Positions 38,961 to 40,240 of a stretch of DNA of 64,000 nt are shown piece after piece (the stretch's first letter is position 1; each line of letters begins with the position of its first letter). The notes under the pieces were generated by a model that had not been told where the DNA came from, did no database searches, and was given only the letters and a program-made list of their open reading frames with translations. The position numbers and the translations under genes were made by a program. The stretch lies in assembly GCF_029203285.1 (NCBI RefSeq), contig NZ_CP115669.1:4712001-4776000 (forward strand), given 5' to 3'. The stretch comes from Pseudomonas sp. PSE14 (lineage in GTDB: Bacteria > Pseudomonadota > Gammaproteobacteria > Pseudomonadales > Pseudomonadaceae).

Positions 38961-39076
38961 GGCGGCCCATCGCGGACGGAGTTCGCTCCTACGCAGGCGC
39001 ATGACGCCGGCGTTCACACGGAGCACCGAGTCAGCCGCGATGGATTTCGCGGACAAGGTCCGCTTGTGTCTGCCGA

Positions 39077-39240
39077 CTTCGATAGGATCGAAGGTGAGAG
39101 CGACGGGAGGCAAGCTGCAGGTCCGCGGTGTTTGCAGCACGAGTAGGAGCCCAAGCTGCCTCCCGCCGTCCTCTGACCAAAGCCCGAACAGTTGAACGAG
39201 CCAAACCTCGAACCACAAGCGTGGGCAGTCAGAGTGCTCT
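39077..39240 (+). ncRNA. Bridge RNA of the IS110 element
   Basis: Three structures are seen in order. A 5' hairpin CTTCGAT/ATCGAAG spans 39077-39093. The target-binding hairpin is closed by CGGGAGGCA (39104-39112) and TGCCTCCCG (39157-39165). Its loop holds AGGTCCGC (39119-39126), identical to the left target flank 39056-39063, and GTAGGAGC (39143-39150), the reverse complement of the right flank 40207-40214. The donor-binding hairpin is closed by CTCTGAC (39171-39177) and GTCAGAG (39228-39234). Its loop holds ACAGTTG (39188-39194), identical to the right end 40201-40207, and CACAAGC (39214-39220), the reverse complement of 39062-39068. A CGAG/CTCG hairpin separates the donor guides. Exact RNA ends are not known. 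Confidence 0.85.
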
Positions 39241-39267
39241 CGCCGTGCAGTTTACGAGGGTTTGAGC

Positions 39268-40197
39268 ATGACGTGTTGGGTAGGTATCGATGTCGCCAAG
39301 GACTCACTGGCCGTGTGGCTTCGCCCGCAAGGCAGGAGCTTGAGCGTGTCCAATGACGAAGTGGGGCATCAGCAACTGGTGGCGCTCTTCGCCGAGGAGA
39401 AGCCTGGCCGTATCGTGCTGGAAGCCACGGGTGGATATGAGCGGGCTGTCCTGCACACCCTGTCCCGCGCCGGCCACGCGGTATCTCGCCTGAACCCTAC
39501 GCGGGTGCGGGCGTTTGCCACCGCCATGGGCAAGCAAGCCAAAACTGATCCCATCGATGCGGCCGTCCTGGCGCATCTGGCCCAGACGCTGGAAGAGGCG
39601 CCCAGCCAGCCCCTTTCACCGGAGCGCGAGCGGCTGCGAGAGCTGGTACAGCGTCGCGAGCAACTGGTTGGCCAGCGCGATGATGAGCGTCGACGTTTGC
39701 AGCAGGCCAAAGACGCCTTTGTCCGCGAATGCCTGACGGAGGCTATCCAGGCCCTGAAAGCCAGGATTCGCAGCTATGACGAGCAAATCGCCGACGCCAT
39801 GGCGACGGTGGATGCCGAGCAAGCCCAGCAACTGGGCCAGGTCAAAGGTGTAGGGCCGGTAACTGTCGCCGGTTTATTGGCCTACCTGCCGGAGCTGGGG
39901 CAACTGAACCGGCGTCAGATCGCCGCCCTGGTCGGCTTGGCCCCCTACAACAGCGACAGTGGCCAGAAGTCGGGGCAACGTCGTATCCGCGGCGGGCGCG
40001 GCATGATTCGACGCATCCTGTACATGGCGACCTGGTCGGTCATCCGCTATCAACCAGACTTCGCCCTTCGCTACCAGCGCCTGCGCGAGAATGGCCGGTG
40101 TGCCAAGGTTGCGCTGGTGGCCTGCATGCGGGTGCTGATCGTGCGACTCAATGCAATGGTCCGAGACGGTACCTGCTGGAGAACAGGGATCGAGTAA
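39268..40197 (+). CDS. IS110-family DEDD transposase (bridge-RNA-guided recombinase)
   Basis: Recombinase of 309 residues. The RuvC-like DEDD domain has Asp8 (GIDVAKD), Glu52 (VLEATGGYE), Asp94 and Asp97 (KTDPIDA). A coiled coil covers about residues 115-195. The C-terminal Tnp_20 domain has [18 protein letters not shown] followed by the candidate catalytic serine region [18 protein letters not shown] and IRRILYM. The frame is intact, so the enzyme could be active. I prefer the ATG at 39268 over the TTG at 39262, because ACGAGGG then sits seven bases upstream. The gene ends just before the right element boundary. Confidence 0.93.
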
Positions 40198-40240
40198 AAG
40201 ACAGTTGCTCCTACGAAGAGCACGTCCGCTCTGGCTCTTG

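Follow-up and report, generated by a model that had tools for sequence, protein, structure and literature searches.

A predicted bridge RNA of variant fold in an IS110-group insertion sequence bordered by REP-like halves in Pseudomonas sp. PSE14

IS621 of Escherichia coli belongs to the IS110 group and carries in its left end a guide RNA in which a target loop is followed by a donor loop, as described in the available parts of PMC11208160 and PMC11208158. According to the accessible text of PMC11208160, covariation was recorded over 5,511 target pairs, bridge RNAs were predicted in 85.7% of IS110s with diverse folds across the family, 3′-side target guides measure 4–7 nt across orthologues and, in a figure legend, a bridge RNA was already predicted for ISPpu10. 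Insertion of ISPpu9, ISPpu10 and ISPa11 into REPs was reported in 2006 (PMC1525189, in part). ISPpu10 and ISPpu9 of P. putida KT2440 are IS110-family elements whose copies lie at a single site within the REPs of P. putida and are accompanied by a 2-bp repeat, and ISPpu9 has a long tnp leader, against which an antisense RNA was detected by Northern blot and S1 mapping; supplying this RNA raised tnp translation (PMC8450116, in part). ISPa11 of P. aeruginosa, an IS1111-type element with a seekRNA (PMC11187229, in part), likewise shows RNA-guided insertion into a Pseudomonas REP. Because the bridge RNA survey of PMC11208160 and the 2006 REP insertions precede this work, we count the mechanism as already known; what is new here is another member with a variant RNA fold.

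The element described here lies in a 64,000-nucleotide stretch of Pseudomonas sp. PSE14 (the window) and spans positions 39065..40207 on the plus strand, 1,143 bp without the core, with REP halves on both borders. It is flanked by a left CT core (39063..39064) and, from the sequence, a right CT core (40208..40209); target and donor both have this core and GCT is common to both, so that CT was picked by analogy to IS621. The left end measures 203 bp up to the ATG, and the right end (40198..40207, plus strand) measures 10 bp and includes the −35 triplet TTG at 40205–40207. The subterminal repeats TGTCT/AGACA, read from the sequence near the element ends, are 5 bp long, compared to 2–3 bp in IS110 and 7–17 in IS1111 elements (PMC11208160, in part). 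A long left end with a predicted guide RNA, a short right end and short subterminal repeats are IS110-group features. The IS1111 group was rejected on the position of the guide RNA upstream of tnp and on the 10-bp right end; in ISPa11, by contrast, the guide RNA is downstream of tnp. ISPpu9 differs in a left end of ~328 nt by the published numbers and in copies that can carry ssr9 downstream. The likeness to ISPpu9, a possible member of the same subgroup, and to ISPpu10 is drawn from published descriptions.

The recombinase gene occupies 39268..40197 (plus strand), ATG 39268 with GAGGG upstream being a likelier start than TTG 39262. Its product contains PF01548 (83.8 bits, cut-off 29) and PF02371 (69.5 bits, cut-off 21.3) and scores 227.7 against a cut-off of 140 for NCBIfam NF033542, the family of RNA-guided IS110 transposases; two further NCBIfam families, one of them TIGR-Tas, fell under their cut-offs. 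The only solved relatives at E ≤ 0.001 were IS621 and ISCro4, both at ~3e-31 (IS621, 2.9e-31). Residues D10, E54, D96 and D99, numbered from the TTG, align with D11, E60, D102 and D105 of IS621, with the IS621 catalytic residues taken from PMC11208158 (in part) and the residue offset being our reading, in which two extra residues are assumed in the deposited chain. For the catalytic serine two alignments disagree, S233 versus S231; the direct alignment with IS621 pairs S231, and S233 is most likely the catalytic residue because a glycine comes next, as after S241 of IS621. Judged by its sequence, the protein is a full-length IS110-group recombinase with DEDD and serine, and the earlier note was right to call the frame intact with all DEDD residues.

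Three copies of the element are present in the genome (one contig, 5,977,163 bases), identical across the 1,141 bases searched and inserted at the same REP position in the same orientation. Their left flank is GCGGACAAGGTCCGCT in two copies and GCGGACAAAGTCCGCT in the third, so that the guide is mismatched in one of the three, and the right flank is CTCCTAC. In the congener G022 the element is absent, and the left flank runs into CGGACAAGGTCCGCTCCTTC and then into right-flank-like sequence, an empty site that differs from the target by one base. Because G022 has this site uninterrupted, the flanks are taken as the two halves of one REP-like site: the left target half at 39056..39062, which equals the left target guide, and the right target half at 40210..40214, complementary to the right target guide (both plus strand). 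Six REP-like sites with at most two mismatches were counted in the window against 0.07 expected; genome-wide, there are 40 occurrences of the 13-base target GGTCCGCTCCTAC and a single one of its reversed control. Three matches to the TwoAYGGAY family, just above the Rfam cut-off, were also seen in the window (8413–8535, 24281–24385 and 40283–40405), each within ~165 bases of a REP-like site; TwoAYGGAY may be a dispersed repeat linked to REPs.

With the own genome included, the recombinase had a match in 3 of the 25 genomes that make up the genus bin (E 1e-60), to which P. schmalbachii also belongs, in agreement with a Pseudomonas host, and in 5 of 398 genomes of the family (1e-90). The element was not found in plasmids by protein search at E 1e-60 or in phages at E 1e-40, a plasmid DNA search returned nine records with none covering 80% of the query, and PADLOC gave no result.

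All four guide strings that the earlier note had read in the left end are present at their positions. The left target guide (39119–39126, plus strand), AGGTCCGC, is identical to 39056–39063 and covers target positions 1–8 with the core C included. GTAGGAGC (39143–39150) is the reverse complement of 40207–40214, and CACAAGC (39214–39220) is the reverse complement of 39062–39068; the left donor guide ACAGTTG (39188–39194, plus strand) equals the right end at 40201–40207. Both reverse-complement strings stand as matches, but their last bases, C39150 and C39220, are assigned to handshake positions of the IS621 scheme instead of to the guides proper, because the junction base that each matches belongs to the other partner (donor G40207 and target G39062, respectively). 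The right target guide proper is therefore 39143..39149, complementary to CTCCTAC, and the right donor guide 39214..39219, complementary to the core and left-end bases (both plus strand).

The target-loop handshake base (39150, plus strand) pairs donor position 7 in all 14 elements with a right end among the 15 examined, being C where donor position 7 is G and T in four elements with A. Of the two donor-loop handshake bases (39220..39221, plus strand), the first pairs target position 7 in 14/15 and the second position 6 in 10/15. The second handshake positions thus pair in only 8/14 (target loop) and 10/15 (donor loop), and the first handshake bases also pair their own partner, in 14/15 and 10/14 cases; in IS621, a handshake base pairing its own partner hinders exchange, according to the available part of the published work. 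Guide polarity, CT core, REP target, junction promoter (here a motif), handshake bases and DEDD plus serine are all shared with IS621. The guides and the REP sequence differ, both left guides are one base shorter than in IS621, with position 8 the last of the target guide and position 7 that of the donor guide, the right target guide measures 7 nt compared to 4 in the IS621 description available, and the right donor guide looks contiguous. When the left end (39065–39261) was dinucleotide-shuffled 20,000 times, none of the four strings was present in 18,949 of the products, one in 1,028, two in 23 and more than two in no case.

Related copies, whose target guides the earlier note had proposed to compare with their flanks, were drawn from several sources. 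Named records supplied twelve loci, namely one from P. schmalbachii (86% identity), ten from P. hunanensis contigs (53%) and one from a Pseudomonas MAG (49%). G120, G274 and G375 are genomes of the same family, and G014 holds the P. schmalbachii contig. Further loci came from an Rfam sX15 search in the family of G409, which is probably Lysobacteraceae: L034, closely related to its elements, lies on a Xanthomonas sacchari plasmid, and sX15 takes its name from Xanthomonadaceae. Across 31 copies of 14 types, the left target guide covaries with its flank, matching its own flank at a mean of 5.8/8 positions versus 4.1/8 for the flanks of others; one of 100,000 permutations was as good, in a test that does not control relatedness. 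When G-U pairs were allowed the contrast was smaller (6.3 versus 4.9; 2 of 100,000 permutations). The seven Pseudomonas-family types scored 8, 7, 6, 7, 7, 5 and 7 out of 8, and the other seven 6, 4, 4, 5, 7, 5 and 3. Poor own pairs occurred in 6/14 types (L052 and L053, 4/8; L058, 3; L054, L057 and P. hunanensis, 5). The own flank was best or tied for 8/14 guides and uniquely best for 3, which is seldom because CCGC is common to many targets. On the right side, GTAGGAG accompanied CTCCTAC and GTGGGAG accompanied CTCCCAC in 13/13 types having a right flank. The donor guides are nearly invariant across the set, so that the covariation evidence is that of the target side. A chance origin of the guide matches is ruled out by the shuffles together with the covariation.

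In another class of relatives, judged by eye, TAACGCC occurs in the left flanks and ATAACGCC in the target loop; flank and target loop both read AACACC in two copies of one genome (L041 and L064), and L066 deviates. Related IS110 ends after TAACGCC-like flanks, with similar target loops, were seen in L035, L039–L046, L048 and L064–L066. Such flanks may resemble an integron attC end. In the two of five G274 copies that were checked (L009 and L012), the transposase stop is the final one. In two of the three G120 copies (L014 and L017), codon 5 of the transposase frame is a stop, so that these copies may be inactive, and the frame of the third (L010) is open. The P. hunanensis copies L023–L031 and L033 are longer (1,240 bp), with ~90 extra bases between tnp and the right end that are, by eye, partly REP-like.

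The targets of five elements, read from their flanks, were counted in G000, G014, G120, G274 and G375. In this order, GGTCCGCTCCTAC was counted 40, 7, 0, 0 and 0 times, GGCCCGCTCCTAC 6, 127, 0, 1 and 1 times, GGGCCGCTCCTAC 0, 6, 72, 0 and 0 times, AGCCCGCTCCCAC 0, 0, 0, 192 and 138 times and CGCCGGCTCCCAC 1, 0, 0, 1 and 28 times. Controls with the reversed patterns yielded between 0 and 9 occurrences in a genome, a level that puts the low counts close to background. By these counts, the repeat targeted by each of the five elements is frequent in the genome that carries the element, which suggests that guide sequences track the REPs of the individual genome. The weakest case is G375, in which the element uses a minority repeat of the host and, of four copies scored, L011 fits its flank poorly; in G274, there is a single G-U position at which guide and counted target are not identical.

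The bridge RNA is predicted at 39095..39245 (plus strand, ends approximate) from an alignment of 15 left ends (199 columns) and its consensus fold, and consists of a closing helix, the target loop and the donor loop. Of the 35 pairs in the consensus fold, 14 vary at both partners, 11 of them within the target-loop stem. Columns 1–28 are unpaired, a closing helix joins the 5′ and 3′ parts and no 5′ stem-loop like that of IS621 is predicted. In the closing helix, 5′ GUGAGAG pairs with 3′ CUCUC; five of the pairs hardly vary, which leaves them without covariation support. Compared with shuffled sequences, this copy's left end has a better fold (z −2.55), which 2 of 200 shuffles equalled. The outer donor-loop helix was not recovered in the consensus fold of the 15 left ends; in single sequences it forms with at least seven pairs, G-U allowed, in 18 of 21 (not in L052, L035 and L041), with a shuffle control that is weak for several and gave 56 of 500 as good for this copy. 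As modelled, the RNA fold is a structural variant of the IS621 bridge RNA in which the closing helix replaces the 5′ stem-loop. The identification as an IS621-type bridge RNA holds on the two loops, the guides to target and donor on opposite strands and the target-side covariation. The 5′ hairpin that the earlier note had included as part of the RNA does not: it overlaps a predicted −10 box at 39083–39088 and is for that reason probably outside the RNA, upstream of the inferred start.

This box, TAGGAT (39083..39088, plus strand), lies 17 bp from TTGCTT, a sequence created by the circular joining of right end, core and left end and absent otherwise; the integrated junction reads CCGCTT. The pattern TTGNNT-17-TANNNT was found across the joined ends of 14/14 elements with a right end, compared to 0.3% of shuffles, among sequences that are related and not independent, and no promoter-like pair ranked above it in 13/14, L009 being the exception. 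With the start placed from the −10 box, the RNA probably begins near 39095.

We consider it highly probable that the locus holds a complete IS110-group insertion sequence that inserts into a REP-like repeat by means of an IS621-type bridge RNA. The anatomy, guide matches, covariation, site choice and empty site are read from the sequence itself, and by analogy the element very probably works like IS621. On excision, the right end, CT core and left end would join as a circle, whose junction would form the promoter TTGCTT-17-TAGGAT and drive an RNA of ~150 nt from the left end. In host REPs, the target loop of this RNA would base-pair to each strand of AGGTCCG-CT-CCTAC, the donor loop would pair with the ACAGTTG-CT-TGTG junction, and the DEDD/serine recombinase would cut beside CT and exchange strands with the assistance of the handshake bases. 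The circle, the transcript, the chemistry and present activity are all expected from IS621, as is a reprogrammable recombinase.

REP halves border the copies examined and the guide regions themselves are REP-half-like, as they would be if the recombinase itself recognised REP structure and the RNA matches reflected past flank capture or shared REP-derived sequence; insertion into REPs is also known from other families such as IS3 (ISPsy8) and IS4 (ISRm22) (PMC1525189, in part). We regard this as very improbable, as the guides sit at fixed places in two loops, match opposite strands and track the REP changes of other hosts, the donor-loop guides match the own ends of the element, and the homologous recombinase is RNA-guided (PMC11208158, in part).

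Rfam sX15 (RF02234) matches 39088..39244 on the minus strand, antisense to the predicted bridge RNA, with 47 bits (E 4.8e-6), short of the gathering score of 55. The two are homologous in sequence, with the closing helix and inner stems at the same places, but sX15 is filed on the opposite strand. A minus-strand −10-like box, TAAACT (AGTTTA on the plus strand), is located at 39249..39254 with no −35 evident by eye; AGNNTA occurs at this place in 15/15 left ends, which are related sequences, compared to 2.6% of shuffles. Among nine loci scanned, L009 (62.6 bits) and L011 (60.3 bits) pass the cut-off, both antisense to tnp, and the present element (L002) is below it. Across the class, 2 of 369 genomes match, the own genome among them, and in the family of G409 26 of 149 do, 16 above the cut-off, with none in 14 control genomes.

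Of 54 sX15 places, 30 were examined as loci (L035 and L039–L067), some sharing a genome. In 23 of these an IS110 transposase or a fragment of one lies opposite the sX15 strand, within 100 bases in 22 and at 701 in L066; the piece in L045 is only 28 residues long. The remaining loci are cut by a contig end (L051, L054, L055 and L067), have no transposase (L049 and L050) or look like chance (L063). Because of these 23 opposite-strand transposases, sX15 as filed is, on the sequence comparison, antisense to IS110 bridge-RNA regions. Both strands score at one and the same place in G409 (35.8 versus 120.2 bits), and a strand error in the Rfam family is conceivable, homology being blind to which strand is transcribed. 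L049 (1501–1671) and L050 (1501–1669) share a syntenic sX15-like stretch at transposase-less loci of one genus that are 98% alike over 3.2 kb; this stretch is possibly an orphan or retained RNA.

A real antisense RNA is plausible here because ISPpu9 makes one. The sX15 match on the minus strand here and in L009 and L011, the −10-like box in all 15 left ends and the ISPpu9 RNA that is antisense to the tnp leader and raises its translation (PMC8450116, in part) would fit a conserved left end that mainly serves as a leader controlling translation, together with an antisense RNA like ISPpu9 Asr9 or sX15, bridge function being secondary or lost. Such a leader-only role leaves the guide–flank covariation unexplained, six of the nine loci scanned lack an sX15 match at E 0.01 and this copy has no evident −35; we hold it to be most unlikely as the main role, although both roles could coexist. 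A tentative proposal, to which we give a rather low probability, builds on the bridge RNA reading: across the bridge RNA, such IS110-group elements would express an antisense RNA that is conserved (sX15 in Xanthomonas, perhaps like Asr9 of ISPpu9), pairs with the bridge-RNA guides and controls recombination, with orphan copies (L049 and L050) persisting as host or immunity RNAs against these elements. In the open literature the name sX15 was found in one table and is absent from PMC3771888, and no report of an anti-bridge RNA appeared among titles and abstract openings, including those on bridge RNAs with Pseudomonas or REPs.

The locus provides a compact, complete IS110 recombinase with its predicted bridge RNA, readable end to end. 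The native target variants in related hosts are natural reprogramming experiments, and the link between sX15 and bridge RNAs raises the question of whether antisense RNAs may hold bridge RNAs in check.
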